Assembly: GCF_000715505.1 (NCBI RefSeq)
Contig: NZ_JHEH01000005.1
Coordinates: 62,001 to 126,000, forward strand
Source of the DNA: Thioclava dalianensis
Lineage (GTDB): Bacteria > Pseudomonadota > Alphaproteobacteria > Rhodobacterales > Rhodobacteraceae
DNA length: 64,000 nucleotides
Direction of reading: 5' to 3'
Part shown: positions 9,687 through 27,675 of the stretch, one piece after another
Layout of the letters: every line of letters starts with the position of its first letter
Position numbering within the stretch: position 1 is the stretch's first letter
Position numbers and translations under genes: made by a program
Notes under the pieces: model-generated
What the model was told of the DNA's origin: nothing
Databases searched by the model: none
What the model saw: only the letters and a program-made list of their open reading frames with translations

Positions 9687-11800
9687 GCATCCCCGTTTTG
9701 CAAAAGCGCGGGCTGCGCCAGATCCAGCGGGCGCGGCGGCTTCCCGGCAGGCGAGATCCCCAGCCGCATCCCCGTGAGCGCCGCATAGACCTGCGCACGC
9801 GGGCGGCCATGAAGCTGCGGATTGAGACGCTGCGCCACGGCATCCAACGCCTCAAGCAGCGCCTCGCCCCCGGCTGTGTCCTGACGCGCGCGCCCGGCGT
9901 AGTAGCGCGAGACCTGCGCCAGAAACTGCTCCAGCACCGCGCCCGCCTCAGAGCCAAGCTGGGGCGCGAAGTGTTTGAGACGGATCACGTTGAGACCGAC
10001 GCGCAGGTCGCGCAGGATATCGACCGACAGCAGGTCATGGCCCGCGCTGAGCTGCGCCAGCCGCGGCCCCGCCTGCCCCAGCGCATCGACCAGCACCGGC
10101 CCCAGATCATCGGCAGACACCCGGCTTTCGGCGCGCGTGGCCTCGGCGATCCGGCGCCATGCCTCGCGCAGCACGCGATGGGCGGCCACATCCGCCCCGA
10201 TCGCGCGCACATTCGAAACCACGACCATCGCGATAATCATTCCCATGACAGTGCCGATATTGCCGCTCAGAAAGAGGCTCAGGTTGGGGCTGTACTCGGC
10301 CTTGAGCAGCAGCATGTAGGGAAAGTTCACGCACAGCGTCAGCCCGATTACCGCCGTCGCCGGGCGCGCCATCAAAACCCCGAAAGGCAAAAGATAAAGG
10401 CCCAGCGCGGCCAGAAGTGGCACGATCCCGGTGATCTGCGGCAAGACCGCATATTCATAGACGAAGACCGCGACCATTGTGCAGAGCAGGTATTTCAGAA
10501 AGCCCCGCATCGCAGGCACCGGATTGTCGATGCCCGCAAGGATGCAACAAAAGACCGGGGCCAGCTCGGCCATCGCAAAGCCGCCATCGCGCCAGCCCAA
10601 GGCCCGCCAGAGCGAGGCGGCAATCAGCACGGCCAAAAATGCCGCAAGGCCCGCCATCGCGGCGCTGCGCCAGTCGCGCACAGGCCGCCCTGCAGGCAAG
10701 CTGCCCAACAGCGCACGCACGTCTGGCCCGGGCCTTGCATCGCTTGCGATTGCCGCGCGCAAAGCCGCACAGTCGCGCCACAGATGCAGCAGATCGCGCA
10801 GCCGCTCGGCCAGATTGACATGGACAAGATTGCTCCAGCCGCGCTGCTCGCGCGCCTCTTCGCTGATCCGGCGCGCCCGCTCGATCAAGGGCACGGCCGA
10901 GATGCCGCTTGTGGCCCCGTCCTCGATCCAGCGCGCGATATCCTCAAGCAGCGCACTGGTCTCGGGCGTCAGCGCATCAAGCGATTTGAGCACGCGGATC
11001 TGATCTTGCAGCGCCGAAAGCAGCGGCAGCAGGCGCGTCATCCGGGTTTGCAGCGCAAGGCTTATCTGCACGAGATCGCGGTGATGCGACGTGTCGTAAG
11101 AGATATGGGCCGTCAGCGCGCGCATATCCGTGGCATCGGCGGCCAGTTTGCGGATTTCGAGGCGCGCAGCCTCTCCGTCCAACGCGTCCCGCAAGGTCTG
11201 GCCCGCCAGCGCAGCCCCCGTATCCAACCAGCCCGAGGCGCGACCAAACACCACCGGCCCGATATGACGCGGAAAGATCAGCCGATTGACCAGCGCCGCG
11301 CAGATCACGCCGACGGCGATCTCTTCGACCCGTGCGACGACGGTCGGAAACACCGCCTGCGGGGTGTCGACCACGGTGAAGGCGACCAGCGCCACCGTGT
11401 AGCCGCCCAGCATAAAGACATAGCTGCGCGGCGTGCCGTCCAGCATCGACACGAACAGGCACCCGCCGATCCAGAGCCCGGTCACGAGAATGAACAGCGG
11501 CGGCGCGGCGACGAGATTGGGCAGAAAAGCGATTGTCATCACCCCGCCAAGGATCGTTCCCAACAGCCGGTAGACCGCCTTCGAGGTACTGGCCCCCGCC
11601 AACGGGTTCGACACGAGATAGACACAGCCCATCGCCCAATAGGGGTTTTCCAGATTGAACGCGCAGGCGATGAAAAACGCTACGCCCGCCGCGATGAAGG
11701 CCTTGATCGAGAACAGCGCATCGGCCACGAACAGCCCGGGGGGCGCCGAGGCTGGCGCGGGCCGTGATATGGCCCGTGCGGAGGCGGAAGCCTCACTCAT
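9683..11800 (-). CDS. FUSC-family efflux protein (AaeB / fusaric-acid-resistance type)
   Basis: Inner-membrane protein of 705 residues with two repeats of about six transmembrane helices (roughly residues 25-190 and 370-520), each followed by a large soluble helical segment, as in AaeB and FusB. The N-terminal half contains NPYWAMGCVYLVSNPLAGASTSKA-type FUSC motif (partly cited) and RLLGTILGGV. It probably exports aromatic acids or related amphipathic compounds with the HlyD partner, using the proton gradient. It is preceded by, and overlaps by 4 bp, a MarR-family gene that is likely its repressor. Confidence 0.9.
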   Translation of the reverse strand: MSEASASARAISRPAPASAPPGLFVADALFSIKAFIAAGVAFFIACAFNLENPYWAMGCVYLVSNPLAGASTSKAVYRLLGTILGGVMTIAFLPNLVAAPPLFILVTGLWIGGCLFVSMLDGTPRSYVFMLGGYTVALVAFTVVDTPQAVFPTVVARVEEIAVGVICAALVNRLIFPRHIGPVVFGRASGWLDTGAALAGQTLRDALDGEAARLEIRKLAADATDMRALTAHISYDTSHHRDLVQISLALQTRMTRLLPLLSALQDQIRVLKSLDALTPETSALLEDIARWIEDGATSGISAVPLIERARRISEEAREQRGWSNLVHVNLAERLRDLLHLWRDCAALRAAIASDARPGPDVRALLGSLPAGRPVRDWRSAAMAGLAAFLAVLIAASLWRALGWRDGGFAMAELAPVFCCILAGIDNPVPAMRGFLKYLLCTMVAVFVYEYAVLPQITGIVPLLAALGLYLLPFGVLMARPATAVIGLTLCVNFPYMLLLKAEYSPNLSLFLSGNIGTVMGMIIAMVVVSNVRAIGADVAAHRVLREAWRRIAEATRAESRVSADDLGPVLVDALGQAGPRLAQLSAGHDLLSVDILRDLRVGLNVIRLKHFAPQLGSEAGAVLEQFLAQVSRYYAGRARQDTAGGEALLEALDAVAQRLNPQLHGRPRAQVYAALTGMRLGISPAGKPPRPLDLAQPALLQNGDA

Positions 11801-12246
11801 TCCTTTTCGTCGAGATAAAGGGCGTTCGAGAGCCGCGCGAGCACACGCTCGGTCGCTGCCAGATCCTCGCGGCTGACATCCCCCAGCAAACGCATCCGCA
11901 GCGCGCGCAAAAGATCGGAGGCATTTTGCGCATGCGTACGGCCCATCTGCGTGAGATAGACCAGCTTCGCGCGGCGGTCGCTCGGATCGCCCTCCCGGCG
12001 CAGATAGCCATCGCGCTCCAGCACGTCGAGAATGCGCACAAGTGCTGTCCCCTCCACGCCGACCCTGCGGGCCAGTTCGGTCTGACGGATGCCATCGCCG
12101 TCGCGCAACAGATGCACCATCGGCAAGGCCATCGCATCCGACCAGCCTTCGCGGCTCAGCTCGCGCGCGATCTCACGCCGCCACGATTGCGCCACCGCAA
12201 TCAACAGCGGCGCAAAGCTGGTATTGTCCTCAATGCGGTCGGTCAT
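11797..12246 (-). CDS. MarR-family transcriptional regulator
   Basis: A 149-residue winged-helix regulator: the recognition region RQTELARRVGVEGTALVRIL lies near residues 54-73 and the wing REGDPSDRRAKLVYLT near residues 83-98, both typical of MarR. As first gene of the MarR-FUSC-DUF1656-HlyD operon it most likely autoregulates and derepresses the pump when a phenolic ligand binds. GAAGGG lies six bases before the ATG at 12246. An inverted repeat at 12284-12312 upstream is a candidate operator. No outer-membrane channel gene is present nearby. Confidence 0.9.
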   Translation of the reverse strand: MTDRIEDNTSFAPLLIAVAQSWRREIARELSREGWSDAMALPMVHLLRDGDGIRQTELARRVGVEGTALVRILDVLERDGYLRREGDPSDRRAKLVYLTQMGRTHAQNASDLLRALRMRLLGDVSREDLAATERVLARLSNALYLDEKE

Positions 12247-12457: not shown

Positions 12458-13612
12458 CTAGAGCGCGCACCAGATCCCGCCCGCATCCGACGAGCGCAGC
12501 GCGGCCTCGACAAAGCGCATCCCTTGCACGCCATCCGCCACGCCCGGCAATGAGCCCTCTGACGCAGGCGCACCGGAGGCATGCGCAAGGATCGCATCAG
12601 CGGCATCGGAATAGAGCGTCGCGAAGGCCTCCAGGAAGCCCTCGGGATGACCTGCCGGAACACGCCCGAGCGCCGCCACCTCCGGCGCAAGCCCCGGCCC
12701 ACCCCGCGACAACAGGCGTGGCGGCTCGCCAAACGGAGTATGGCGCAACGTGTCGGGCGCGGTATGCGCCCATTCGAGCCCGCCCTGCGCGCCGTAGACA
12801 CGCAGCTTCAGCGCGTTCTCATTGCCCGGCGCGACCTGACTGGCCCAGAGCATCCCCTTCGCGCCGCCATCATAGCGGATCATCATCTGCACATCGTCAT
12901 CGACCTGCCGCCCCGGCACGAAACGGGTCAGCTCGGCGCAGATTTCGCGCGCCTCCAGCCCTGTCACAAAGCTTGCAAGGTTCATCGCATGCGTGCCGAT
13001 ATCGCCAAGCGCCCCGGCCGCACCCGCGCGTTCCGGGTCCACACGCCAGAGCGCCTGTTTCGTGCCATCCTCCGAGACCGGCTCGGTCAGCCAGTCCTGC
13101 GGATATTCGACCTGCACCACCCGGATCGGCCCCAGCGCACCGGCGGCCACCATCGCGCGGGCCTGCCGGATCATCGCGTATCCGGTATAGGTATGGGTGA
13201 GGACGAAAAGCGCACCGCTCTGCGCGACCTGCTCGGCCAAAGCCTCCGCCTCGGCCAGCGTGCGCGTGATCGGCTTGTCGCAGATCACATGGATGCCCGC
13301 TTGCAGAAAGGCCGTGGCGACCGGCGCGTGCAGGTGATTGGGCGTGACGATGGAAACCGCCTGAATGCCATCAGGTCGGGCGGCCTCGGCGCGCGCCATC
13401 TCCACGAAATCGCTGTAGCTGCGCGCCGGATCCAGCCCCAGCGCCGCGCCCGAGCGCCGCGCGCGCTCAGGGTCCGAGGACAAGGCCCCTGCGACCAGTT
13501 GATAGCGATCATCGAGCCGGGCGGCGATCCGATGCACCCCCCCGATAAACGCGCCTTCACCGCCGCCAACCATCCCAAGGCGAATACGCCGATCTGTTAT
13601 CTGCTCGCTCAT
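12458..13612 (-). CDS. Gfo/Idh/MocA-family NAD(P)-dependent sugar dehydrogenase
   Basis: A 384-residue oxidoreductase with an N-terminal Rossmann fold (RIRLGMVGGGEGAFIGGVH, glycine-rich, residues 10-28), the family lysine in CDKPITRTLAEAEALAEQ near residues 112-115, and the substrate-side motif GALGDIGTHAMNL near residue 205 with the catalytic Asp/His pair. Family members oxidise or reduce a sugar or polyol hydroxyl with NAD(P). It is the last gene of an operon that holds a second, only distantly similar Gfo/Idh/MocA gene, two sugar isomerases/epimerases and a complete ABC importer, so it may catalyse the closing reduction or the opening oxidation of an epimerisation sequence. Substrate unknown. 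Confidence 0.88.
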   Translation of the reverse strand: MSEQITDRRIRLGMVGGGEGAFIGGVHRIAARLDDRYQLVAGALSSDPERARRSGAALGLDPARSYSDFVEMARAEAARPDGIQAVSIVTPNHLHAPVATAFLQAGIHVICDKPITRTLAEAEALAEQVAQSGALFVLTHTYTGYAMIRQARAMVAAGALGPIRVVQVEYPQDWLTEPVSEDGTKQALWRVDPERAGAAGALGDIGTHAMNLASFVTGLEAREICAELTRFVPGRQVDDDVQMMIRYDGGAKGMLWASQVAPGNENALKLRVYGAQGGLEWAHTAPDTLRHTPFGEPPRLLSRGGPGLAPEVAALGRVPAGHPEGFLEAFATLYSDAADAILAHASGAPASEGSLPGVADGVQGMRFVEAALRSSDAGGIWCAL

Positions 13613-13623
13613 GTCTGGCCCCC

Positions 13624-14679
13624 TTATCCAATCCCGAGAATGCGTTTGTTGGCGGTCTCATCGGTGCCAGCGCCTGCGAAATCGTCAAAGGCGTGGTCGG
13701 TCACGCGGATGATGTGATCGGCAATGAATGCAGCCCCTTCGCGCGCGCCGTCCTCGGGATGTTTGAGCGCGCATTCCCATTCCAGCACCGCCCAGCCGTC
13801 GAAATCATGCGCGGCGAGCTGCGAGAAGATCCGTTTGAAATCGACCTGCCCATCGCCCAGAGACCGGAAGCGCCCGGCGCGATCCACCCAAGACTGATAG
13901 CCGCCATAAACCCCTTGCCGCCCCGAGGCGACGAACTCCGCATCTTTGACGTGAAAGGCCCGGATCCGTTCGTGATAGATCTCGAGGTGATCGAGATAAT
14001 CGAGCTGCTGCAGCACGAAATGCGAGGGATCATACAGCAGGTTTGCGCGGGCATGGCCGCCGACCCGCTCGAGAAACATCTCATAGCTGATCCCGTCATG
14101 CAGATCCTCGCCGGGATGCAGCTCAAAGCACAGATCAACGCCGTTCTCTTCGCAGATATCCAGAAGCGGGTGCCAGCGGCGGGCCAGCTCGTCAAAAGCG
14201 GTCTCGATCAGCCCCGCAGGGCGCTGCGGGAACGGGTAGAGGAAGGGCCATGCCAGCGCGCCCGAGAAGCTGGGCAACGCGCTCAGCCCCATCCGGCGCG
14301 AGGCTTGCGCTGCAAAGCGGAGCTGCGCGCAAGCCCATTCTTGCCGCGCCTCCGGGCGGCCATGCAGCTCGGGCGGGGCGAAGCCGTCGAGCAAGGTGTC
14401 ATAGACCGGATGGGCCGCGACAAGCTGGCCTTGCAAATGCGTCGCAAGCTCGGTCACCGCCAAGCCATGCGCGGCAACAGTGCCAAGGATTTCATCACAG
14501 TAATCCTGCGAGCCCGCCGCGCGCTCGATATCGATAAACCGACGATCCCACGCAGGGATTTGGACCCCCTTATAGCCGAGCCCGGCGGCCCAACCGCAGA
14601 TCGCATCCAGCGAATTGAAAGGGGCGTCATCGCCCGCGAATTGCGCAAGGAAGAGGGCGGGCCCCTTGATCGTTTTCAT
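13624..14679 (-). CDS. Sugar phosphate isomerase/epimerase-like TIM-barrel protein (351 aa)
   Basis: A xylose-isomerase-like TIM barrel. Metal-ligand candidates sit at strand ends: the Glu in CFELHPGEDLHDG (about residue 180), the Asp/His of LLYDPSHFVLQQ (about residue 217), the His in IRAFHVKDAEFV (about 243) and the Glu in WAVLEWECALKHPEDG (about 300). Enzymes of this fold interconvert keto-sugars or epimerise carbons next to a carbonyl. GGAG lies upstream of the ATG at 14679. It is paired with the dehydrogenase at 12458-13612 (11-bp gap), repeating the dehydrogenase/isomerase pairing found upstream in the same operon. Confidence 0.85.
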   Translation of the reverse strand: MKTIKGPALFLAQFAGDDAPFNSLDAICGWAAGLGYKGVQIPAWDRRFIDIERAAGSQDYCDEILGTVAAHGLAVTELATHLQGQLVAAHPVYDTLLDGFAPPELHGRPEARQEWACAQLRFAAQASRRMGLSALPSFSGALAWPFLYPFPQRPAGLIETAFDELARRWHPLLDICEENGVDLCFELHPGEDLHDGISYEMFLERVGGHARANLLYDPSHFVLQQLDYLDHLEIYHERIRAFHVKDAEFVASGRQGVYGGYQSWVDRAGRFRSLGDGQVDFKRIFSQLAAHDFDGWAVLEWECALKHPEDGAREGAAFIADHIIRVTDHAFDDFAGAGTDETANKRILGIG

Positions 14680-14702
14680 GCGGTGTCTCCTATGGAAATG
14701 GC

Positions 14703-14731
14703 GCGGGGGAAGCCCTGAGGCGCGCCCCCGC
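14703..14731 (-). other. Intercistronic stem-loop in the sugar operon
   Basis: Seven-base inverted repeat GCGGGGG/CCCCCGC with a 15-nt loop between the second dehydrogenase gene and the 351-residue isomerase gene. It may mark an mRNA processing or stability point; no T-run follows. Confidence 0.4.
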
Positions 14732-14738
14732 CCGTGTG

Positions 14739-15881
14739 TCAGGCAACCCGGCGCAACAGCGCGCGAGCGGCATCGGGGTCCAGCGGTTCGGGCCGGGTGC
14801 AGGTGGTGCTCAGCTCAACGAACCCGCCCTCTTCGCCCGAGCGCAGGATCGCGCTCATGATGTCGATCCCATGCGGCGCCCGGTCGATCGAGCAGCGCGC
14901 CTCGCGCCCCTCAAGCAATGCCAGCGCCATATCGGCCAGACCGGCAGAGCGGTAATTGGCCAGCTTGCCTGCCTTATGCTCTTGGTTGGGCACGCCGAAG
15001 GGATGATCCCACGGCGCAACCGGTGCAATCGCCCCGTCGCGCCCCGCGATCTCGACCGGACCGCTGAAGAAGTTCGGATCGGGCAGAAAGAGCGAGCCCT
15101 CTGTGCCGTAAAGCTCCATATGGCCGTGGCGATGCGCCCAGACATCCCAGCTGGTCGAAAGAGTCACCGTAGCCCCTTGGGCAAACTCCAGCAGTGCGTG
15201 GATATTGGTTGGCGTGTTCACCTCGATCGTCTCGCCCGCGCGCGGCTCGGAGGTGATCGTGCGTGTGGGCGTCGCGCTGGAAGTCAGTGCGGCCACACGT
15301 TTGACCGGCCCGATCAGATTGATCAGATTGGCGAGGTAATAAGGCCCCAGATCCAGCATCGGACCGCCGCCCGGCTGGAAGAAGAAATCGGGATTGGGGT
15401 GCCAATGCTCCATCCCGTGGCTCATCACATACGCGGTGCCCGCGATGATCGTGCCAAGGTCTCCCGCATCCAGCACGGCGCGCGCCTGCTGATGCGCCCC
15501 GCCCAAATAGGTGTCGGGCGCGCTGCCCACCGAAAGCCCCTTGGACTGCGCCAGATCGCGCAGCTCCTTGCCCTCTTGCGTCGAGAGCACGAAGGGCTTT
15601 TCGCTATAGACATGCTTGCCCGCCTCCAGCGCCGCTTTCGCAACCGCGAAATGCGCGCCCGGAATGGTGAGGTTGATGATCAGATCGACTGACGGATTGT
15701 CCAGAAGCGCCGCGACGCTTTGCGCCTCCACGCCATATTGCGTCGCGCGCGCCTGAGCCGCCGCAAGATCGAGATCGGCGCAGGCGACGACTTTGATCCC
15801 GCGAAACAGTGGCGCAAAGTCGAAATAGGTGGTCGAGATATTGCCGCATCCGATGATGCCGATGCCAAGTTCAGTGCTCAT
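14739..15881 (-). CDS. Gfo/Idh/MocA-family sugar dehydrogenase (380 aa)
   Basis: Second NAD(P)-dependent oxidoreductase of the operon. Rossmann motif GIGIIGCGNISTTYFD at residues 6-21, conserved Lys in SEKPFVLSTQEGKELRDLA near residue 95, and GGGPMLDLGPYYLANLINL near residues 171-189 carrying the Asp/Tyr active-site pair. The C-terminal half contains the beta-sheet substrate domain (WDVWAHRHGHMELYGTEG region). It differs clearly from the 384-residue paralogue in the active-site block (DLGPYYL against DIGTHAM), so the two probably act on different substrates or carbon positions. Confidence 0.88.
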   Translation of the reverse strand: MSTELGIGIIGCGNISTTYFDFAPLFRGIKVVACADLDLAAAQARATQYGVEAQSVAALLDNPSVDLIINLTIPGAHFAVAKAALEAGKHVYSEKPFVLSTQEGKELRDLAQSKGLSVGSAPDTYLGGAHQQARAVLDAGDLGTIIAGTAYVMSHGMEHWHPNPDFFFQPGGGPMLDLGPYYLANLINLIGPVKRVAALTSSATPTRTITSEPRAGETIEVNTPTNIHALLEFAQGATVTLSTSWDVWAHRHGHMELYGTEGSLFLPDPNFFSGPVEIAGRDGAIAPVAPWDHPFGVPNQEHKAGKLANYRSAGLADMALALLEGREARCSIDRAPHGIDIMSAILRSGEEGGFVELSTTCTRPEPLDPDAARALLRRVA

Positions 15882-15890
15882 GGAAAATCC

Positions 15891-16652
15891 TCACAGCTTG
15901 CGGGCGTTGTCGATGGAGACACGCGCAAAGCGCGCATCGTCGCTGGGATTGTCATGCTCCATCACGAAATGGGTCACATCGGCTTTGCGCAGAGCCGGGA
16001 GCAGCCGGTCCCATGGCAGGACGCCAAGACCCACATCGGACCAGCCATCCTCATCCGCCTTCTCGCCCTCGGGCGCGATATCTTTGACATGGGCGGCGTG
16101 CATCTGGGCGCCATAACGATCAATCCACTCGAAGGGATCAGCACCGCCGCGCGCGATCCACGCAATATCGGCCTCCCATGCAAGATCCGGCGCGGCCTCC
16201 AGGAGATGCGTCATCGGCACGCTGCCATCTGCCAGCGGCTTGAACTCGAAGTCGTGATTGTGCCAGCCAAACCCGAAACCGGCCTCGCGCAGCGGTGCCC
16301 CGGCACGGGCCAGACGGGCGCCAAACGCGGCCCAGCCCCCGGCATCGCTGGGGCGGTCATCGGGCATCAGGAAGGGCACGAAAAGCGAGGTCATACCAAG
16401 CGTCCGGGCGATCTCGATGGCGCGCTCGGGCGTGTCCTCGACAAGGGCGAGGCTGAAATGCCCGCTTGGCATGGTCAGACCCACCGCGTCGAGCTGCCTG
16501 CGAAAGGCGCTCAGCTCCGAGTCCGAAGAACTCTCGTAAAGCCCGCCAAAGCCCTCGACCCCGGTATATCCCGCGGCCGCCAGCATACCGAGCGTATCCT
16601 CGAGCGGTCCAAAATTGCGCGAACTGTAAAGCTGATAATTGAAATCGGTCAT
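15891..16652 (-). CDS. Sugar phosphate isomerase/epimerase-like TIM-barrel protein (253 aa)
   Basis: Compact xylose-isomerase-like TIM barrel. Candidate metal and catalytic residues: Glu in YTGVEGFGGLYE, His in FGFGWHNHDFEFKP (about residues 127-135), Asp in WEADIAWIARGG (about 160), His in MHAAHVKDIAPEGEK (about 182) and Glu in THFVMEHDNPSDD (about 230). The size and the WHNHDFEF block resemble the family that includes E. coli YcjR and inosose-type enzymes. The start at 16652 follows CAGGAGG by eight bases; an open frame extends seven codons further without support. Expected to act between the two dehydrogenases, for example on a 3-keto-sugar; this is inference. Confidence 0.85.
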   Translation of the reverse strand: MTDFNYQLYSSRNFGPLEDTLGMLAAAGYTGVEGFGGLYESSSDSELSAFRRQLDAVGLTMPSGHFSLALVEDTPERAIEIARTLGMTSLFVPFLMPDDRPSDAGGWAAFGARLARAGAPLREAGFGFGWHNHDFEFKPLADGSVPMTHLLEAAPDLAWEADIAWIARGGADPFEWIDRYGAQMHAAHVKDIAPEGEKADEDGWSDVGLGVLPWDRLLPALRKADVTHFVMEHDNPSDDARFARVSIDNARKL

Positions 16653-16691
16653 CTGGGGATCCTCCTGACGCATGTCTGTTTGGCCTCTGGC

Positions 16692-17783
16692 TCAGAGGCG
16701 GCGTTCTGTTTCGGCGTCGAAAATCGACGCGCGGGAAATATCGAAGGCAAGCGGCACCCGGTCGCCGGGCCGGTAGCGCCGCCCCGAGCCACAACGCACC
16801 GACAGGCGCGCCTCGCCAAGCGTGAGCCACACGAGACTGTCCGCGCCCATGGGCTCCTCCAGCTCGACCACCGCCTCGACCTGCCCGGGGCGGCCCACCG
16901 CGTCTTGATCGAACAGCAGATGCTCGGGCCGCATGCCGAAAATCACCTCGCGCCCGGGCAATAGCGCTGTATCGCCATCATAGCCCGCAAGCGGGGTCTC
17001 GATGCCTTGGCCGCGAAAGCGGACACCGTCTGCGCCCTCCTCCAGCCGCCCCCGGAAGAAATTCATCGCGGGCGAGCCGATAAAGCCCGCCACGAAAAGG
17101 TTGCAGGGCCGGTTGTAGATGGTGAGCGGATCGTCGAGCTGCTGAATTGCGCCGCCCTGCATCACCGCGATCCGGTCGGCCAGCGTCAAAGCCTCGATCT
17201 GATCGTGGGTGACATAGACCATGGTGGAGCGCAGCCGCTGGTGCAGACGCTTGATCTCGACCCGCAGATCGACGCGCAGCTTGGCATCAAGGTTCGAGAG
17301 CGGCTCGTCGAAGAGGAAAACATCGGCATCGCGCACCAGCGCCCGCCCAATCGCGACCCGCTGACGTTGCCCGCCCGACAGGTTCGAGGGGCGCCGCTTG
17401 AGCAAGGGCTCGATCTGCAAGATCTCGGCGGCCCGCGCGACCCGTTTATCGATATCCTCACGCGAATGCTTGGCCACGCGCAGACCGAAGCTGAGGTTCT
17501 TCTCAACCGTCATCTGCGGGTAGAGCGCATAGGACTGAAACACCATGCCGATCCCGCGATCCTTGGGCTCATCCCAGGTCACATTGCGCTCGTTGATCCA
17601 GACCTCGCCATCCGAGACATCAATCAAACCGGCGATTGCATTGAGCAGGGTCGACTTGCCACAGCCAGAGGGGCCAAGCAGCACGAGAAACTCCCCCGGC
17701 GCGATGTCGAGTTGCAGATCGCGGATGACATCCAAAGCCCCGTAGCTGATGCGCAGGTCGCGAACACTGACAGAAGAATCCAT
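16692..17783 (-). CDS. Sugar ABC transporter ATP-binding protein (UgpC/MsmX family)
   Basis: A 363-residue ATPase: Walker [10 protein letters not shown] (about residues 38-46), Q-loop FQSYALYPQMTV, ABC signature [15 protein letters not shown], Walker [12 protein letters not shown]-loop YVTHDQ, then an OB-fold MOI/TOBE regulatory domain from about residue 240, as in MalK/UgpC. It energises the CUT1-type importer made with the two permeases and the binding protein encoded just upstream. The gap to the next permease gene is 3 bp. Confidence 0.95.
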   Translation of the reverse strand: MDSSVSVRDLRISYGALDVIRDLQLDIAPGEFLVLLGPSGCGKSTLLNAIAGLIDVSDGEVWINERNVTWDEPKDRGIGMVFQSYALYPQMTVEKNLSFGLRVAKHSREDIDKRVARAAEILQIEPLLKRRPSNLSGGQRQRVAIGRALVRDADVFLFDEPLSNLDAKLRVDLRVEIKRLHQRLRSTMVYVTHDQIEALTLADRIAVMQGGAIQQLDDPLTIYNRPCNLFVAGFIGSPAMNFFRGRLEEGADGVRFRGQGIETPLAGYDGDTALLPGREVIFGMRPEHLLFDQDAVGRPGQVEAVVELEEPMGADSLVWLTLGEARLSVRCGSGRRYRPGDRVPLAFDISRASIFDAETERRL

Positions 17784-17786
17784 GGC

Positions 17787-18674
17787 TTATCCTTTCACGG
17801 CGCCTGCGGCGATGCCGCGGACGAACCAGCGTCCCGAGACGAAATAGACGATCAGCGGCACCATGGCCGTGAGGATCGTCGCGGCCATATTGACGTTATA
17901 GGCCTTCGTTCCGGTGGTGGTGTTGACGATGTTATTGAGCTCGACGGTCATCGGCAGATGATCGCGCCCGGCGAAGATCAGACCGAACAGGAAGTCGTTC
18001 CAGATCCCGGTGACCTGCAAGATCGCGGCCACCACAAGGATCGGCCCCGACATCGGCAGCATCACACGGGTGAAAATGGTCCAGAACCCACCGCCGTCGA
18101 TCCGGGCCGCCTTGAACAGATCCACCGGCACCGCCGCGTAATAGTTGCGAAACAGCAAGGTCATCACCGGCATGCCAAAGATCACATGCACCACGATAAT
18201 GCCCGGCAGGGTGTTATAGAGCGACACCATCGAGAGCATCCGCACCAGCGGGTAGAGATAGACCTGATAGGGAATGAACGCGCCCATCAGCAGGACCGCG
18301 AAGATCAGGTTGCCCCCGCGCGGACGCCAGAATGACAGCGCATAACCGTTGATCGCGCCCAGCAGGATCGACAGGAAGGTACTTGGGATCATGATCTTGA
18401 AGGAGTTGAGCACGCCGACCCGAATGCCCTCACAATTGACCCCGGTGCAGGCCTTGGCCCAAGCGGTGACCCAAGGGGCGAGCGTCAGCTTCGAGGGCAG
18501 CGAGAAGATATTGCCCTGCTGGATCTCGGGCATCGTTTTGAACGAGGTCACGACCATCACATAGAAGGGCAGCAGGAAGAAGGCCGCAGCAAAGACGAGA
18601 AAGGCATAAAGCCCGATCCGTCCGGGGGTCAAATGGCGCGGCTTGGCACCGCGCGGATGGATGGGATCGCTCAT
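17787..18674 (-). CDS. Sugar ABC transporter permease (MalG-type)
   Basis: Inner-membrane permease of 295 residues with six helices and the EAA loop AAVPVDLFKAARIDGGGFWTIF near residues 190-210, which docks to the ATPase. It belongs to the MalG side of CUT1 importers. A periplasmic insertion contains two cysteines (ACTGVNC, near residues 88-94). The start at 18674 follows GGAGGGCAGC and overlaps the upstream permease by 4 bp; the longer open frame upstream lies inside that permease gene. Confidence 0.93.
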   Translation of the reverse strand: MSDPIHPRGAKPRHLTPGRIGLYAFLVFAAAFFLLPFYVMVVTSFKTMPEIQQGNIFSLPSKLTLAPWVTAWAKACTGVNCEGIRVGVLNSFKIMIPSTFLSILLGAINGYALSFWRPRGGNLIFAVLLMGAFIPYQVYLYPLVRMLSMVSLYNTLPGIIVVHVIFGMPVMTLLFRNYYAAVPVDLFKAARIDGGGFWTIFTRVMLPMSGPILVVAAILQVTGIWNDFLFGLIFAGRDHLPMTVELNNIVNTTTGTKAYNVNMAATILTAMVPLIVYFVSGRWFVRGIAAGAVKG

Positions 18675-19555
18675 GCTGCCCTCCGTTCTTTGCGGAAATA
18701 CTGGCGATAAAGCCACGGGCCCAACACCACGAGCACCGCCACGAACATCACCGAGGCTGCCGCCGTCGCAAGCGCGATATTCTGCCGGTTGAAGAGGTAA
18801 TCGATGACGAATTTCGCGGGCACTTCGGTCGAGATCCCGGGGCCGCCGCCGGTCATCGCCACGACGATATCGTAGACTTTCACCACCGCAATCGCGAGCA
18901 GCACGATGGCGGTCACGAACATCCCCGACATCATCGGGATGACGATCGAGATATAGACCCGCCATGTCGGAATGCCGTCGACGCGCGCGGCCTTCCAGAT
19001 ATCCTCGTCGATGCCGCGCAGCCCGGCCAGCAGGATCGCCATCACGAGGCCCGCCGATTGCCAAATCCCGGCAAAGCCCACCATATAGATCGCCCGATCC
19101 CCCCGCGCGAGCCAGTCGAAGCTAAAGCTCGTCCAGCCCCAGTTGTGCATCGCGTGCTGGATACCCAGCGTCGGGTTGAGGATCCATGCCCAGACCAGAC
19201 CGGTGACGATGAAGGACATGGCGTAGGGATAGAGAAAGATCGTGCGGAAGATCCCCTCGCCCTTGATCCGCTGATCGAGAAAGACCGCCATCAGAAAGCC
19301 AAGGACAAGGCATCCGACGATGAACATCACCCCAAAGATCGCGAGGTTCTGCACCGAGATAATCCAGCGCGCCGAGCGGAACAGTCGTTCATATTGCTCA
19401 AAGCCCACGAAGTCATATTTGGGCAGAATGCCCGAGCTGGTGAACGAGATACGGATCGTCCAGAGGATCGTTCCGAGATAGGCGAAGATCACGATCACCC
19501 AAGTCGGTATCAGGGCAGCCTGTGCACTCAGGCGGCGCAAGCGAAGCGGTTTCAT
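18671..19555 (-). CDS. Sugar ABC transporter permease (MalF-type)
   Basis: Inner-membrane permease of 294 residues with six predicted helices, the first at about residues 13-35, and the EAA loop GIDEDIWKAARVDGIPTWRVY near residues 200-220 (partly cited). Works with the MalG-type partner downstream. The ATG at 19555 has GGAG about nine bases upstream; an in-frame ATG ten codons earlier has no ribosome site. Confidence 0.93.
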   Translation of the reverse strand: MKPLRLRRLSAQAALIPTWVIVIFAYLGTILWTIRISFTSSGILPKYDFVGFEQYERLFRSARWIISVQNLAIFGVMFIVGCLVLGFLMAVFLDQRIKGEGIFRTIFLYPYAMSFIVTGLVWAWILNPTLGIQHAMHNWGWTSFSFDWLARGDRAIYMVGFAGIWQSAGLVMAILLAGLRGIDEDIWKAARVDGIPTWRVYISIVIPMMSGMFVTAIVLLAIAVVKVYDIVVAMTGGGPGISTEVPAKFVIDYLFNRQNIALATAAASVMFVAVLVVLGPWLYRQYFRKERRAA

Positions 19556-19587
19556 GAAAGGGGTCTCCTGTCGGGGCGCGGGCATGA

Positions 19588-19642
19588 CTGTCCAGTCCGA
19601 TCAGAACCGGACAGCGCGGCTCGGGCGGCCCAAAGACCGCCC
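19588..19642 (-). other. Tandem stem-loops between binding-protein and permease genes
   Basis: Two short inverted repeats lie in the 101-bp gap after the binding-protein gene: GGGCGG/CCGCCC (19623-19628, 19637-19642) and CTGTCC/GGACAG (19588-19593, 19609-19614). Such hairpins often protect or partly terminate the binding-protein transcript so that it exceeds that of the permeases. Confidence 0.5.
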
Positions 19643-19656
19643 TCACCTTTTGGCGC

Positions 19657-20901
19657 TCAGCCGCCGATGATTGCGGCGAACTGATCCACGAATTGCTGCG
19701 GAGTTTGGCTCTTATCGGTGAAATAGGCCGAGACGAGATCCTGAATCGAGCCGCTCATATCGGGCGTGATCAGGATGTCCGAGCTGGGCACGTAATCGCC
19801 CGATTTCAGCAGGGCGAGCCCCTTCTGGGCGCATTGATCCATCCCTTCGGAAGAGACATCCTTGAGAACGGGCACCGCCCCTTTCTTCTCGTTGAACGCA
19901 AGCTGGACCTTGGGCTCAAGCAGCACCTTGGCCAGCAAAGCCTGCGAGGCTTGCTCGGCCTTGCTTTTCACCTTGGGGAAGACGAACACATCGCCGCCGA
20001 CCCAATAGGTCTGATGTCCAAGACCCGGGATGCAGCCGACATCCTTGCCGGGCACTTTCTTGTTCACGTCGATCTCGCCCTTGGCCCAATCGCCCATGAA
20101 GTTGAAGCCGGCCTTGTTGTCGATCACAAGCGCGATCGCCTGATTCCACTGCCGCCCCTGCATGCCGGGATCGACATAGTCGCGCAGCTTGCCGAAGGTC
20201 TCGGCAACCTTCAGGAACTCCGGCGATTTGACCGCATCGACGTCATGATCCTTGATGATCTTCATATAAAGATCCTTGCCGCCCTGCGTGATCAGCACGT
20301 TGTAAAAGGTCAGAACCTGCGTCCAGGCATCGCCCGCTTGCGCCAGCGGGATCACCCCGTCCTTCTTGAGCGCTGCGAGATCGGTCAACAGGTCATCCCA
20401 AGTCTTCGGGGGCTCCAGCCCCGCCTTCTTGAGCACCTCGGGTGAGTACCAGAGCCACGTGTTGGAATGGATATCGACCGGCACTGCATACATGTGCCCA
20501 TCCACCGAAACCGCGTTGAGCAGCACCGGGTTGATCTTGTCTTTCCAGCCATATTCCTTGGCCAGCGGATCGAGGTTGCGCAGCAACCCGTTCGAGACGA
20601 GCTCATCGAATTGCTTGCCGGTATTAAACTGCATCGCGGTGGGCGGATTGCCCCCGATGATCCGGTTGATGCCATCGGTCCGGGCCGCATCGCCACCGCC
20701 CCCCGCCACGGCCGCATCGACCCAGTCGCCGCCCTGCGCATCAAAGGCTTTCTCAAATTCCATCACCGCTGCATGCTCGCCACCCGAGGTCCACCAATGG
20801 ATGACTTCTGCCTTGTCGGCGGCTTGCGCCTGCATACCCGCCAGACCGAACGCCGCGGATGCGACGACGGCGAGGGCACGGTTCTTCGTGACAGTATTCA
20901 T
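19657..20901 (-). CDS. Sugar ABC transporter periplasmic binding protein (CUT1)
   Basis: Extracytoplasmic binding protein of 414 residues with a clear Sec signal peptide (MNTVTKNRALAVVASAAFG..., cleavage likely after AQA near residue 27). Mature-region features of the family-1 sugar-binding proteins include VIHWWTSGGEHAAV near the N-terminus and FNFMGDWAKGEI. First gene of the eight-gene operon that runs to 12458. GGAGGAGAGA precedes the ATG at 20901. The upstream 100 bp carry two LacI-type operators, so it is probably induced through the divergent LacI regulator. Ligand unknown; a glycoside or disaccharide is likely from the enzymes downstream. Confidence 0.93.
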   Translation of the reverse strand: MNTVTKNRALAVVASAAFGLAGMQAQAADKAEVIHWWTSGGEHAAVMEFEKAFDAQGGDWVDAAVAGGGGDAARTDGINRIIGGNPPTAMQFNTGKQFDELVSNGLLRNLDPLAKEYGWKDKINPVLLNAVSVDGHMYAVPVDIHSNTWLWYSPEVLKKAGLEPPKTWDDLLTDLAALKKDGVIPLAQAGDAWTQVLTFYNVLITQGGKDLYMKIIKDHDVDAVKSPEFLKVAETFGKLRDYVDPGMQGRQWNQAIALVIDNKAGFNFMGDWAKGEIDVNKKVPGKDVGCIPGLGHQTYWVGGDVFVFPKVKSKAEQASQALLAKVLLEPKVQLAFNEKKGAVPVLKDVSSEGMDQCAQKGLALLKSGDYVPSSDILITPDMSGSIQDLVSAYFTDKSQTPQQFVDQFAAIIGG

Positions 20902-20956
20902 TCTCTCCTCCCTGATTGCTCGCGACTCCTCAATCGCGCAATTGATTGCTCTCCAC

Positions 20957-20970
20957 TGCAATCGATTACA
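20957..20970. promoter_or_regulatory. LacI-family operator candidate (proximal)
   Basis: TGCAATCGATTACA matches the LacI/GalR pattern TGNAANCGNTTNCA at all fixed positions. It lies 55 bp upstream of the binding-protein start codon. Confidence 0.7.
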
Positions 20971-20987
20971 GACACGGTAGATTCGAA

Positions 20988-21001
20988 TGCAATCGATTGC
21001 A
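20988..21001. promoter_or_regulatory. LacI-family operator candidate (distal, perfect palindrome)
   Basis: TGCAATCGATTGCA is a perfect 14-bp palindrome with the central CpG typical of LacI-family operators. Its centre is 31 bp, about three helical turns, from the proximal site, so two repressor dimers could sit on the same DNA face. It is only 19 bp from the regulator's own first possible start codon, which implies autoregulation. Confidence 0.75.
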
Positions 21002-21019
21002 AGTTTCAAGTTTTAGGCT

Positions 21020-22171
21020 ATGAATAATGTGACCAACGTCGTACCTGTTCTTTCCCTAGAGCGGGCAAAAGCGCCTGTCTGCACAGGCGACAATGAGGTT
21101 TCGGTGAACAAGACGACAGGCGAGATACCCCCTCGGCCAGAGCGGCGACGGACCACAGGTCAGCGACAGACGATGGCGGATGTCGCCCGGCGTGCGGGTG
21201 TGTCGACGGCAACTGTCTCGCGCGCGCTCACCCGCCCCGATCAGGTGAACGCAAAGACCCGCGACATGGTACGCAAGATCGCGCAAGAGCTTGGCTTTCG
21301 TCCCAATCTGATCGGGCGGCAGCTGCGCACACAGGCCGCCCACTCACTGCTGATCCTCGTGCAGGACCTTGAAAACCCGTTTTATTCCGAGCTGATCAAA
21401 GGGGCGGAATCGGTCTGTCGGGAGCGCCAGTTCTCGGTCATGGTCGGCGGCACCGATGGCTATGAGGATGTCGAGACGCTCTATGCCGAGCAATTTCTGG
21501 GAGGCCGCGTCGACGGGCTGATCCTGCTGACCGGACATCTGCCCGCGGGCCTCTCGGCCAGCCTTGCCACCCAAAGCCCCGTGGTTCTGGTCTCCGAGGA
21601 CAATCCAGAGCTCGATCTCTGCGCGGTGTTGATTGACAATCCCGGCTGGGCCACGCGCGCCACCGCCCATCTTATCGCGCAGGGCCACCGTCGCATCGCG
21701 CATCTCTGTGGCCCGATGACCCGCATCATCAGCCCCGAGCGCCGCGAGGGGTATCGCCGGGCGCTGGCCACGGCCGGGATCGCGCATGATCCGCAGCTTG
21801 AGGTGCCCGGCGACTTCTCATTTGAGTCCGGACGAGAGGCGGTGCGCCAATTGCTCAGCCTGCCAGAGCCGCCAACCGCGATCTTCTGCGCCAATGACGA
21901 ATCCGCCCTTGGCGCGATCCGCGCGGTTCAGCAAGCGGGGCTCTCGGTCCCCGGCGACATCTCGATCATCGGCTTTGACGACACCAAGCTCGCCCAGTTT
22001 TCCGACCCGCCGCTCACGACAGTGCGCCAGCCGCGCCAGCAAATGGGGGCCGCCGCCGCCGATCTGGTGATCGGCCTGATCGAGAACGGCCCCGCGCAAC
22101 GAACGCGCCTGCTGCTGGACTGTCAGCTGATCGAGCGCGGAACCGTCGGCCCCTGCCCCGTCCCGCGTTAA
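21020..22171 (+). CDS. LacI-family transcriptional regulator of the ycj-like sugar operon
   Basis: Contains the LacI helix-turn-helix MADVARRAGVSTATVSRALT followed by the hinge and a periplasmic-binding-protein-like sugar domain (VDGLILLTGHLP, PPTAIFCANDESALGAIRAV, GFDDTKLAQFSDPPLTTVRQP). It is read divergently from the sugar operon and the two palindromes lie between them, so it most likely represses the operon until a sugar ligand binds. From the ATG at 21020 the protein has 383 residues, with about 50 unusual residues before the HTH; a GTG at 21104 preceded by TGAGG, or the ATG at 21173, would give a more typical N-terminus. Confidence 0.92.
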   Translation: MNNVTNVVPVLSLERAKAPVCTGDNEVSVNKTTGEIPPRPERRRTTGQRQTMADVARRAGVSTATVSRALTRPDQVNAKTRDMVRKIAQELGFRPNLIGRQLRTQAAHSLLILVQDLENPFYSELIKGAESVCRERQFSVMVGGTDGYEDVETLYAEQFLGGRVDGLILLTGHLPAGLSASLATQSPVVLVSEDNPELDLCAVLIDNPGWATRATAHLIAQGHRRIAHLCGPMTRIISPERREGYRRALATAGIAHDPQLEVPGDFSFESGREAVRQLLSLPEPPTAIFCANDESALGAIRAVQQAGLSVPGDISIIGFDDTKLAQFSDPPLTTVRQPRQQMGAAAADLVIGLIENGPAQRTRLLLDCQLIERGTVGPCPVPR

Positions 22172-22182: not shown

Positions 22183-24219
22183 TCACAGATCCTTCATCAG
22201 CCGCAGCGCATCATAGATCGCCGCATGGGTGTTGCGCGCGCTCACCGCATCGCCGATTCTGAACAGCGCAAACTGCCCGTCGGGATTGCGCGCGCTCTCT
22301 TGCGGACGGCCTGAGATCAGCGCCTCATAATCCACCTCGCCCAGATTGGACGAGAGCGGCTTGAGCTCAAAATACAGCTCATCAAGCGGGCGCGTGCCGT
22401 GATTGATCACAACCTGATCGACCAGCCGCTCCTGCGTCGCTGCACCGTAATCGCTACCCAGCGTCGCGCGCAGCCGGTTTCCCTCGCGCGCCACCGAAAG
22501 CAGCCGCCATGTCACGGTAAACACCGTGTCGCGGGTTTGCAGGTTTCGCATATAGGGCACGAGGTTCATCGCCATCACCTCGGGCGCGAAGCTGCGATCG
22601 GGCGTCACGATCTCGACGCGCGCGCCCGTGGCCGAGATCTTATCCGCCGCCATCAGCCCCGGATTATCCCCCGCATCATCGAAGATCAGCACATCGCGCC
22701 CCGGCGCTGCATCACCCGACAGGATATCCCAAGCCGAGACCACAAGCGCATTTCCCTGCGCCAGCACCTCGGTATGCGGCAGCCCGCCCGTGGCCACGAT
22801 CACCAGATCGGGCGCACTCTCAACCACGTCGGACGCTTCGGCATAGGTGTTGAAGCGGAACGTCACGCCGCGCTTGAGACATTGCTCATAGCGCCAGTCG
22901 GTGATCGAGATCATCTCGCGCCGCCGGGGATCCTGTGCGGTGAGCCGGATCTGGCCGCCTGGCTGATCGGCGGCCTCAAAGACTGTGACCGCATGGCCGC
23001 GCTCGGCGGCGACCCGCGCCGCCTCCAGCCCCGCAGGCCCCGCCCCGATCACGCTCACCCGCTTGGGCAGAGGCGCCGGGGCAATCGTGTGGCCCACTTC
23101 GCGCTCACGCCCCGTCGCCGGGTTGTGCAGACAGAGCGCCATACCGCCCTGATAGATCCGATCGAGGCAATAGTTCGCCCCGACGCAAGGCCGGATATCC
23201 GCCTCGCGCCCTTCGACGATTTTGCGCACGAGATGCGGATCGGCGATATGCGCCCGCGTCATCCCGACCATATCGAGCTTGCCGCTGGCGATGGCGTGAC
23301 GCGCGGTCGCGACATCGGGGATCTTCGCGGCATGGAAGGTCGGGAACTGCGTCGCCGCCCGGATCTCTCCGGCGAAATCGAGGTGCGGTGCGTTGCGCAT
23401 TCCCTGAATCGGGATCACATCGGTCAGCCCCGGATCGGAGTCGATATGCCCCTTCACGACATTAAGGAAATCGACCATCCCGCTGTCTTTCAGACGCTGC
23501 GATATCTCCAGCCCGTCGGCGCGCGTCAGCCCGCCCGGCAGATCCTCATCGCCGGTATAGCGCACGCCGACGATGAAGTCCGGCCCGACGCGCTCGCGAA
23601 TGGCGCGCAGCGTGTCGAACGTAAAGCGCAGCCTGTTGTCGAGACTGCCGCCATAGGGTGCGTCGAGATCATTGGTCAGCGGCGACCAGAACTGATCCAT
23701 CAGATGGCCATAGGCCTGCAATTCGATCCCGTCTAGCCCGGCGTCCTTCATCCGCTCAGCGGCATCGGCATAATCTTCAATGATGCGCGCGATATCCCAG
23801 TCTTCGAGCCGTTTGGGAAAGGCACGATGCGCAGGCTCTCGACTATGACTGGGTGACACAACAGGCAGCCAATCGGCCTTATCCCAACGCGTACGCCGTC
23901 CCAGATGCGTCAGCTGGATCATCACCGCCGCGCCATGATCGTGGCATTCGTCGGTGAGCGCGCGCATCCATCCGACGACCTCATCCTTCCAAGCCAGGAT
24001 ATTGTTGAACACCGGCGGGCTGTCGCGCGCAACGCTGGCAGAACCCGCCGTCATCGTCAGCGCCACCCCGGCCCGCGCGCGTTCGACGTGATAGGCGCGG
24101 TAGCGGTCTTTCGGCATCCCATCTTCGGGATAGGCCGGTTCATGACTGGTGATCATGATCCGGTTGCGCAGCGTGAGATGTTTGAGCTGATAGGGCTGAA
24201 GGAGTGGATCGTTGGACAT
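22183..24219 (-). CDS. NADH:flavin oxidoreductase / N-demethylase (DgcA/HpbB type)
   Basis: A 678-residue fusion of an Old-Yellow-Enzyme TIM barrel (residues 1-370) with an FAD/NAD(P) reductase half, as in trimethylamine dehydrogenase. Between them lie cysteines in RPCVGANYCLDRIY and ALCLHNPATG that fit the [4Fe-4S] site, then the dinucleotide fold VSVIGAGPAGLEAARVAAERGH near residue 385 (partly cited). Relatives demethylate dimethylglycine (DgcA) or N-methylproline (stachydrine pathway). With the Rieske oxygenase next door it would remove later methyl groups of a betaine. The start at 24219 follows AGAGG. It is divergent from the TetR gene. Exact substrate is not decided by sequence alone. 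Confidence 0.88.
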   Translation of the reverse strand: MSNDPLLQPYQLKHLTLRNRIMITSHEPAYPEDGMPKDRYRAYHVERARAGVALTMTAGSASVARDSPPVFNNILAWKDEVVGWMRALTDECHDHGAAVMIQLTHLGRRTRWDKADWLPVVSPSHSREPAHRAFPKRLEDWDIARIIEDYADAAERMKDAGLDGIELQAYGHLMDQFWSPLTNDLDAPYGGSLDNRLRFTFDTLRAIRERVGPDFIVGVRYTGDEDLPGGLTRADGLEISQRLKDSGMVDFLNVVKGHIDSDPGLTDVIPIQGMRNAPHLDFAGEIRAATQFPTFHAAKIPDVATARHAIASGKLDMVGMTRAHIADPHLVRKIVEGREADIRPCVGANYCLDRIYQGGMALCLHNPATGREREVGHTIAPAPLPKRVSVIGAGPAGLEAARVAAERGHAVTVFEAADQPGGQIRLTAQDPRRREMISITDWRYEQCLKRGVTFRFNTYAEASDVVESAPDLVIVATGGLPHTEVLAQGNALVVSAWDILSGDAAPGRDVLIFDDAGDNPGLMAADKISATGARVEIVTPDRSFAPEVMAMNLVPYMRNLQTRDTVFTVTWRLLSVAREGNRLRATLGSDYGAATQERLVDQVVINHGTRPLDELYFELKPLSSNLGEVDYEALISGRPQESARNPDGQFALFRIGDAVSARNTHAAIYDALRLMKDL

Positions 24220-24277
24220 GGGAGCCTCTGGGTTGCTCCGTTCAGCCTGCCACAATGTTCACATGTGTCAAGTTTAA

Positions 24278-24291
24278 GTTCACTAGTGAAC
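24278..24291. promoter_or_regulatory. TetR operator candidate in the betaine cluster
   Basis: Perfect 14-bp palindrome GTTCACTAGTGAAC between the flavoenzyme gene and the TetR gene. A further half-site TGTTCACATGTG lies 22 bp to the left (24256-24267), closer to the flavoenzyme start. The pair fits a TetR-type site controlling both divergent promoters. Confidence 0.7.
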
Positions 24292-24332
24292 ATTTTCTTG
24301 TATGCCACCCGCGGGACCGCTAGCCTGCGCGC

Positions 24333-25016: not shown

Positions 25017-26480
<1,464 letters not shown>

Positions 26481-26484
26481 GGCG

Positions 26485-27570: not shown

Positions 27571-27642
27571 AGCGCGACGCCCCCGACCGCCCGCAAGCTC
27601 TCGCGCAATTGGGACTGGCGAGGGCGGGCCTGACTCCTTATG

Positions 27643-27653
27643 TTTGGGCCAAA
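27643..27653. promoter_or_regulatory. Possible LysR box
   Basis: TTTGG-G-CCAAA is an interrupted palindrome inside a larger TTAT...ATAA-like context 23 bp before the preferred LysR start codon. It has the T-N11-A form expected of LysR sites, but such short motifs occur by chance; no divergent target lies here. Confidence 0.3.
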
Positions 27654-27675
27654 TAACAAGGGCCCGCTTATACCG

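Follow-up and report, generated by a model that had tools for sequence, protein, structure and literature searches.

How could an imported sugar compound be processed by an operon that encodes two dehydrogenases and two TIM barrels? This question is raised by a locus of nine predicted genes in the Thioclava dalianensis DNA analyzed here (the window, a stretch of 64,000 nucleotides). The original prediction read it as a ycj-like operon in which two sugar epimerases work with two dehydrogenases in the absence of a hydrolase. Open reading frames and profile matches confirm the architecture: eight co-directional genes on the minus strand, with intergenic gaps of 71, -4, 3, 18, 9, 59 and 11 nt, face a gene for a LacI-family regulator, P0009 (21020..22171, plus strand), which was identified by family profiles and lies on the opposite strand, its start 118 nt away from the gene for the binding protein. 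P0001 (12458..13612) and P0003 (14739..15881) are two unlike members of the Gfo/Idh/MocA family, while P0002 (13624..14679) and P0004 (15891..16673) are TIM barrels of the AP_endonuc_2 family. The remaining genes specify an ABC ATPase, two permeases and an SBP_bac_1 binding protein. No match to a glycosidase or phosphorylase family in Pfam was found among the nine proteins, in line with the absence of a hydrolase. Terminator-like sites between 12000 and 22400 are not above chance (5 found, against a shuffle mean of 7.8). The flanking genes for FUSC, MarR, flavin oxidoreductase and TetR proteins had been candidates for aglycone handling; they have no counterparts at E 1e-10 in the related loci compared, and we therefore dropped this idea and claim no link between them and the operon.

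P0002 is identical at 243 of 349 residues (70%, full length, 584.9 bits) to PDB entry 8ro4, named '2-hydroxy-3-keto-glucal hydratase', which we took from the alignment as the hydratase reference in place of the AtHYD record. In the barrel tree it falls in the hydratase (HYD) clade with an SH-aLRT support of 99. Both this and the Gfo tree discussed below derive from quick searches with SH-aLRT as the sole support measure, place YcjS, YcjR and others on long branches, and leave open 14 of 38 (barrel) and 15 of 49 (Gfo) inner branches. Together, identity and clade membership point to P0002 being an orthologous 2-hydroxy-3-keto-glucal hydratase. An inositol-like substrate had also been considered for this locus. 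Inositol or rhizopine-type catabolism, by an inosose dehydratase and inositol dehydrogenases, would accommodate the weak matches of P0002 to IolE (69.6 bits, cut-off 290) and of P0001 and P0003 to IolG (55.9 and 52.6 bits, cut-off 355). However, every one of these scores is far below its cut-off, with both barrels falling well short of IolE, and a true IolE is encoded on another contig (343.7 bits, against 69.8 for the P0002 gene in the same search). Given also the identity of P0002 to the glucal hydratase, membership of this locus in a myo-inositol iol system is extremely improbable.

The second barrel, P0004, matches the Agrobacterium 3-keto-O-glycoside beta-eliminase (OGE), AtOGE (8bvk), with 39% identity and 155 bits. 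All five metal and catalytic residues of AtOGE given in the available text of PMC10628242 (H132, H134, D163, H189 and E233) are kept, as H138, H140, D169, H195 and E239, and P0004 groups with AtOGE in a clade with a support of 98. The conserved metal site and catalytic histidine suggest that P0004 is likewise an eliminase, although its preference for leaving group or anomer may differ, given that it shares only 39% identity with AtOGE and belongs to a sister subclade. Its likely start is Met8, at 16652, with an AGGAGG ribosome site upstream. Judged by eye, as were all signal peptides here, P0004 has no leader, whereas the eliminases of two operons with a GMC-type flavoenzyme (L111 and L112) carry one; the eliminase starts of L001, L005 and L126 are uncertain.

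These placements also bear on the comparison with the E. coli ycj system, in which two dehydrogenases and a 4-epimerase turn one glycoside into another. Such a route would be consistent with the broad families that P0001 and P0003 share with YcjS and the barrels share with YcjR. Yet BLAST comparison with YcjR finds nothing for P0004 even at E 10 and a match of just 45 residues for P0002, and in the tree the two barrels cluster with the hydratase and the eliminase, apart from YcjR. Moreover, of the two ycj dehydrogenases to which P0001 and P0003 had been likened, only YcjS is a Gfo/Idh/MocA enzyme; YcjQ belongs to the zinc-type alcohol dehydrogenases (PF00107) and has no counterpart among the nine genes, which also lack the ycj phosphorylases and phosphoglucomutase. 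We thus regard ycj-type epimerization as highly improbable. Of the route originally proposed, glycoside import and redox chemistry, probably through 3-keto intermediates and unlike that of ycj, survive; the labels 'epimerases' and 'ycj-like' do not.

In the Gfo tree, P0001 falls in a 19-row clade (SH-aLRT 99) with the reductases of L111 and L112, which serve as stand-ins for AtGfo. YcjQ, not being a Gfo enzyme, was excluded from this tree; of the P0003 homologues in L116-L132, those of L117 and L118 are absent from it, and the L034 dehydrogenase is represented by a 319-aa part. One of the 19 rows, L115_g2, comes from a non-HYD locus, where it adjoins a different barrel, and without it the support is 85. 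A P0001 homologue of at least 250 bits lies within the fetched stretch of 72 of the 80 HYD loci compared (the best 80 of 593 confirmed loci), a count that depends on score thresholds of our own setting and includes loci ending at contig ends. This neighborhood and the tree argue for P0001 as a putative 3-keto-glucose reductase (Red). P0003 is of the ThuB type by tree: its 13-row clade (99), the other 12 rows of which all come from loci with an adjoining OGE homologue, is nested in a 27-row ThuB/DH group (99). It is 45% identical to the dehydrogenase adjoining ThuA in L076, and has no close solved relative, the best PDB match being DgpA at 69 bits. The association is not universal, in that neither OGE nor ThuA adjoins the P0003 homologue in 5 of the 17 regions having one. 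P0003 is accordingly a candidate NAD-binding glycoside 3-dehydrogenase, with both the C3 position and the use of NAD over NADP being predictions.

From the hydratase identity of P0002, the clade of P0004 and the groupings of P0001 and P0003, the operon most likely encodes oxidation, elimination, hydration and reduction, as a variant of the recently described bacterial pathway with this chemistry. In placing the four enzymes largely in a known route, albeit neither that of inositol nor thuAB as such, the phylogeny gives much of the outcome that the original prediction had named as counting against it. We consider it highly probable that this LacI-controlled operon achieves the net hydrolysis of an imported O-glucoside by means of four separate enzymes, presumably in the cytoplasm, going by leaders judged by eye. 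The importer would grip the glucosyl end and carry the intact compound inside, where P0003 would use NAD+ to oxidize the glucosyl unit at its C3 hydroxyl. P0004, as a metal enzyme, would then use His140 to remove the C2 proton and expel the aglycone, yielding 2-hydroxy-3-keto-glucal, to which P0002 would add water to give 3-keto-glucose. Finally, P0001 would reduce 3-keto-glucose to glucose with the NADH from the first oxidation, and since it consumes that NADH the route could be redox-neutral. These activities in T. dalianensis are predicted from sequence; the lgd pathway offers a precedent in which two Gfo enzymes and two barrels suffice for a whole route, according to the available text of PMC7676230.

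The importer itself, probably of the CUT1 type, comprises a UgpC/MalK-type ATPase, P0005 (16692..17783, minus strand; 439 bits against the UgpC cut-off of 432), two PF00528 permeases, P0006 (17787..18674, minus strand) and P0007 (18671..19585, minus strand), which are GlcU-like (159.1 bits) and GlcT-like (107.5 bits) at scores under the respective cut-offs, and the binding protein P0008 (19657..20901, minus strand). The best PDB matches of P0008 are 8hqq (248 bits), 5xpj and 5dvf, placing it in the GltB/ppGBP glucose-binding family with an altered pocket: 9 of 12 glucose contacts are kept, while K92 is replaced by N93, N301 by G302, and H379 lies opposite a gap.

By analogy with AtOGE, which is described as preferring beta-glucosides, the substrate is most likely a beta-glucoside. 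The hints on the anomer are nevertheless at odds. The closest named relative of P0003, ThuB, is associated with trehalose and sucrose isomers, which are alpha-glucosides, whereas the accessible part of the AtOGE account has 3'-keto-maltose not being cleaved. That the same four-step chemistry acts instead on an anhydrosugar, an alpha-disaccharide or another C3-oxidizable hexoside is possible but rather unlikely. The ThuB kinship favors it, as does the lgd set, whose published description likewise lists two Gfo enzymes, two barrels, an ABC importer and LacI; against it, P0001 reaches 114.2 bits and P0003 56.7 bits where the NCBIfam levoglucosan dehydrogenase cut-off is 650, the genome has no ThuA match, and AtOGE has the preference noted above.

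Among 289 sampled genomes of the class a P0004 homologue (E < 1e-30) occurs in 10, with an adjoining P0003 homologue in 8 of them. HYD (E 1e-40 or better) is present in all 8 block-bearing genomes, compared with 18 of the 281 others (Fisher 1.4e-9, uncorrected for kinship, with 3 of the 8 from one family); an OGE homologue also occurs without HYD, in G056. The order OGE-DH-HYD-Red seen here is repeated in L001, L002, L005, L034, L052, L128, L129 and L131. ThuA (E 1e-30) is found in 9 of the 289 genomes, of which five have HYD at E 1e-40 (G252, G040, G161, G247 and G267) and four do not (G154, G117, G128 and G222). This linkage is weak; four of the five also have the OGE block, leaving only G267 as an independent case.

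Between the regulator and binding-protein genes lie two copies of a LacI-type operator-like perfect palindrome, TGCAATCGATTGCA (20988..21001) and TGCAATCGATTACA (20957..20970). The genome-wide palindrome scan carries the weight of the operator reading rather than the window scan, as in the window alone chance not infrequently yields a pair of matches with 2 or fewer mismatches (14 of 100 shuffles). Of 15 upstream stretches, 8 contain a TGYAATCGATTRCA-like palindrome (the window, L001, L002, L021, L034, L128, L129 and L131) and the others (L082, L083, L084, L085, L126, L127 and L130) do not, although L083 has a related palindrome, CGAAATCGATTTCG; these stretches are of unequal length, have limits set by match positions, and are not all verified gaps between LacI and binding-protein genes.

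Many poorly named proteins carry the labels 'sugar phosphate isomerase/epimerase' or 'Gfo/Idh/MocA oxidoreductase', and four such genes here receive concrete proposed steps. With a dehydrogenase/eliminase pair like this one, a cell would be able to cut glucosides in the absence of a glycoside hydrolase, and NAD would be recycled within the route. More tentatively, and as conceivable rather than probable, HYD-Red may be a general back-end for 3-keto-glycosides with at least four front-ends: a flavoenzyme with a leader-bearing OGE (L111, L112), a ThuB-type dehydrogenase with a leaderless OGE (this operon), ThuB with ThuA (L076, the only one of the best 80 of 593 loci to have HYD-Red near ThuB-ThuA), and a levoglucosan dehydrogenase with an LgdB1-like barrel (L087). 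ThuA would then stand in for OGE in cleaving 3-keto-glycosides, and this would account for what becomes of 3-keto-trehalose in rhizobia. The varied partners of one hydratase-reductase pair make the role of ThuA, and the missing hydratase of some levoglucosan users, testable.

Among known systems, the Agrobacterium tumefaciens O-beta-glucoside pathway, with the flavoenzyme GlycDH, AtOGE, AtHYD and a Gfo reductase in the available text of PMC10628242, shares with this operon the eliminase active-site residues, the closely similar hydratase and the proposed order of chemistry, and the GMC-type operons standing in for it have reductases in one clade with P0001. There, however, a flavoenzyme and a partner with a TAT signal act first, where a ThuB-type NAD-binding dehydrogenase is found here; the nine genes include no GMC flavoenzyme with a gluconate-2-dehydrogenase-subunit-3-like partner, and L111 and L112 have apparently CUT2-like genes, going by annotation, in place of the CUT1-like importer. 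Among the titles and abstracts listed in the literature search, which covers few subscription journals, none concerned a ThuB-type dehydrogenase with OGE. The lgdA-lgdB1-lgdB2-lgdC set of Bacillus smithii, as far as the available text of PMC7676230 describes it, resembles this operon in gene content and in an NAD-dependent first step followed by elimination, hydration and reduction. It differs in that P0001 and P0003 are far below the levoglucosan dehydrogenase cut-off and P0004 lies in the AtOGE clade, not among LgdB1-like barrels. The E. coli ycj operon is similar in having an ABC importer, a nearby repressor gene, a Gfo dehydrogenase and an AP_endonuc_2 barrel, but it has the zinc enzyme YcjQ, two phosphorylases and YcjU, and its 4-epimerase YcjR is close to neither barrel here. 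The thuAB genes function in trehalose and sucrose-isomer utilization, and P0003 resembles the ThuA-adjoining dehydrogenase of L076; this genome, however, has no match at E 0.001 to PF06283, which we take to be ThuA, and an OGE homologue adjoins the dehydrogenase instead.

Reading the genes at their positions bore out the original prediction's placing of the nine genes, and profile matches did the same for the families it named. The eight minus-strand genes of the operon (12458..22171) are closely spaced, with gaps of -4 to 71 nt, and terminator-like sites within this stretch show no excess over chance. The LacI gene (P0009) starts 118 nt off on the opposite strand, and two palindromes, TGCAATCGATTGCA and TGCAATCGATTACA, both lie inside this 118-nt gap. 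Because nothing else in the genome (4.18 Mb) fits their pattern at one mismatch or fewer (control 0), and 7 of the 14 further upstream stretches that were scanned hold similar palindromes, the evidence points to a dedicated local regulator. Immediately downstream of the operon (8617-12246) lies an aromatic-acid-type efflux set of HlyD, FUSC and MarR, the latter two having no match in the related loci compared. On the other side (22183-29360) are an FMN/FAD oxidoreductase, TetR, a Rieske ring-hydroxylating oxygenase subunit and reductase, LysR and an alpha/beta hydrolase, a set suggestive of aromatic or related catabolism. Farther along, at 52930-61361, is another sugar ABC cluster; with it come a further Gfo/Idh/MocA gene (56153-57085) and, at 58998-61361, a glycoside hydrolase of family GH2.

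The two TIM-barrel proteins had been described as epimerases. P0002 matches 8ro4, a '2-hydroxy-3-keto-glucal hydratase', with 584.9 bits over residues 1-350 and 243/349 identities, two other solved matches being far lower. The top solved match of P0004 is 8bvk, which is AtOGE, the O-glycoside beta-eliminase (OGE) of Agrobacterium tumefaciens, with H132, H134, D163, H189 and E233 as metal-binding or catalytic residues according to PMC10628242. In our alignment the P0004 counterparts are H138, H140, D169, H195 and E239, and all five positions are conserved in 10/10 aligned rows. A tree of 41 barrels places P0002 in a hydratase clade (SH-aLRT 99) and P0004 in an OGE clade (SH-aLRT 98), with YcjR and IolE outside both. 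Judged from the solved matches, conserved residues and barrel tree, 'epimerase' is a family label for these proteins and unlikely to be their function.

When 52 Gfo proteins are placed in a tree, P0001 belongs to a 19-member clade (SH-aLRT 99) of reductases located near a hydratase, including those of the flavoenzyme-type operons L111 and L112; a single row, L115_g2, has a different setting, and dropping it leaves clade support at 85. P0003 falls in a 13-member clade (SH-aLRT 99) in which every other row is from a locus with an OGE homologue, nested within a 27-member group (SH-aLRT 99) that also contains dehydrogenases adjoining ThuA. Among 17 regions with P0003 homologues (L116-L132), OGE adjoins in seven (L126-L132), ThuA in five (L120-L123, L125) and neither in five (L116-L119, L124); L076 is an additional locus with ThuA beside the homologue. 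P0003 is 45% identical to this ThuA neighbour and 26% to YcjS, and its top solved match is DgpA (69 bits). In a Devosia MAG (L034, 7939-8898) its homologue appears as two separate matches, the first open frame stopping at 319 aa, perhaps through a frameshift or assembly error.

Of the 289 alphaproteobacterial genomes sampled, 18 have a P0004 match at E 0.001, and 10 of the 18 reach E <1e-30; in eight of these 10, the window's own genome counted, a P0003 homologue adjoins OGE. A hydratase (E 1e-40) is present in all 8 genomes with this block versus 18 of 281 others (Fisher 1.4e-9, without kinship correction; the eight span six families, three belonging to the window's own). It lies immediately behind the block in three of the seven other genomes (L128, L129, L131), and the remaining four have it at another genomic position. 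OGE has no P0003 neighbour in G231, where the hydratase and reductase stand beside it with a Gfo of another kind, and in G056, in whose genome no hydratase was found. Among the best 80 of 593 hydratase loci, by score thresholds chosen in this analysis, a reductase homologue lies within the stretch in 72, a P0003-type dehydrogenase in seven (including the one next to ThuA in L076), a P0004-type OGE in six and a GMC flavoenzyme in four. On plasmids the halves are separated by a regulator (L083, Agrobacterium sp. T29; L084, Phaeobacter), or the hydratase half is absent within 9 kb (L082, S. meliloti Ak57; L085, Phyllobacterium). Linkage counts and separated halves therefore indicate that the importer, OGE and dehydrogenase behave as a substrate-specific module, and the hydratase and reductase as a shared one.

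Several loci carry the hydratase-reductase pair. L133 (2888-7077, from G231), a single run of OGE, hydratase, reductase and a further, dissimilar Gfo dehydrogenase, is another front-end on the same back-end. In L076 (2410-12262, Agrobacterium pusense) ThuB-ThuA point away from an ABC importer, behind which the pair lies, and ThuA occupies the place of OGE in the window's operon type. L090 (1774-11435, Rhizobium beringeri pRlX3) has the window's make-up (LacI, ABC importer, Gfo, OGE-like barrel, hydratase, reductase); its barrel is 46% identical to P0004 and its first Gfo protein is highly divergent. L087 (4237-14224, Klebsiella pneumoniae plasmid pBS317-1.2) combines the pair with a levoglucosan dehydrogenase (749 bits, cut-off 650) and an LgdB1-like barrel that clusters in the tree with that of the Arthrobacter cluster L088. 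In one levoglucosan-using Klebsiella, PMC10066097 reports, no homologue of lgdB2 or lgdC was identified; a hydratase and reductase of the L087 type could fill these steps there, and the hydratase may be the protein that this paper names LgdB3.

In L112 the first step belongs to a GMC flavoenzyme with a gluconate-2-dehydrogenase-subunit-3-like partner, as in L111 by annotation. By eye, the eliminases of both have hydrophobic leaders, window-type eliminases with a clear start open at the barrel, and no leader was seen in P0003 or P0001. A cytoplasmic, NAD-linked front half would thus have taken the place of a periplasmic, electron-transport-linked one, which would allow NADH from the first step to cover the cost of the last. 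Precedent comes from the lgd pathway (PMC7676230), in which two Gfo enzymes close such a loop. The GMC-type operons may have two cleavage routes, since each encodes a 3-keto-disaccharide hydrolase-type protein (L112, 13128-13874, PF06439 tested; L111, 13847-14623, DUF1080 by annotation).

The binding protein P0008 matches 8hqq with 248 bits and falls in the Pseudomonas glucose-binding family, to which its matching PDB entries belong. The family is named here from PMC7927077, which lists 12 glucose-contact residues for the P. putida protein. Nine of the 12 are conserved in P0008 (numbering shifted by 2, judging by W35/W36), with K92 replaced by N93, N301 by G302 and a gap opposite H379. Of 15 related binding proteins, 13 have N at the K92 position, the exceptions being L083 (A) and L084 (T), and 12 have G at the N301 position; D303 and K339 are conserved in all 15, and the G68 position is variable. 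By sequence, a glucose-type pocket with three altered contacts would fit the glucosyl end of a glucoside. By analogy a beta-glucoside is favoured, because AtOGE acts on 3-keto-beta-glucosides including 3'-keto-cellobiose and does not cleave 3'-keto-maltose (PMC10628242), although the ThuB kinship of P0003 hints against such a substrate.

The operon had also been called ycj-like, a description that does not hold: YcjQ is a zinc alcohol dehydrogenase, YcjR lies outside the P0002 and P0004 clades, and ycj has two phosphorylases and a phosphoglucomutase of its own. A levoglucosan-type operon was rejected, the levoglucosan dehydrogenase cut-off being missed by a wide margin, as was an inositol route, the IolE and IolG cut-offs likewise being missed by wide margins and the genome's IolE lying on another contig. 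A search of the genome for ThuA gave no match at E 0.001. The combination of a ThuB-type dehydrogenase, leaderless OGE, shared hydratase-reductase pair, glucose-type importer and own operator was not found described in the literature searched, though Kastner 2024 may cover it. The oxidation-elimination-hydration-reduction route itself is known from A. tumefaciens, B. smithii and the gut strain PUE (PMC10628242, PMC7676230), and we rate the window's operon as a variant of it.
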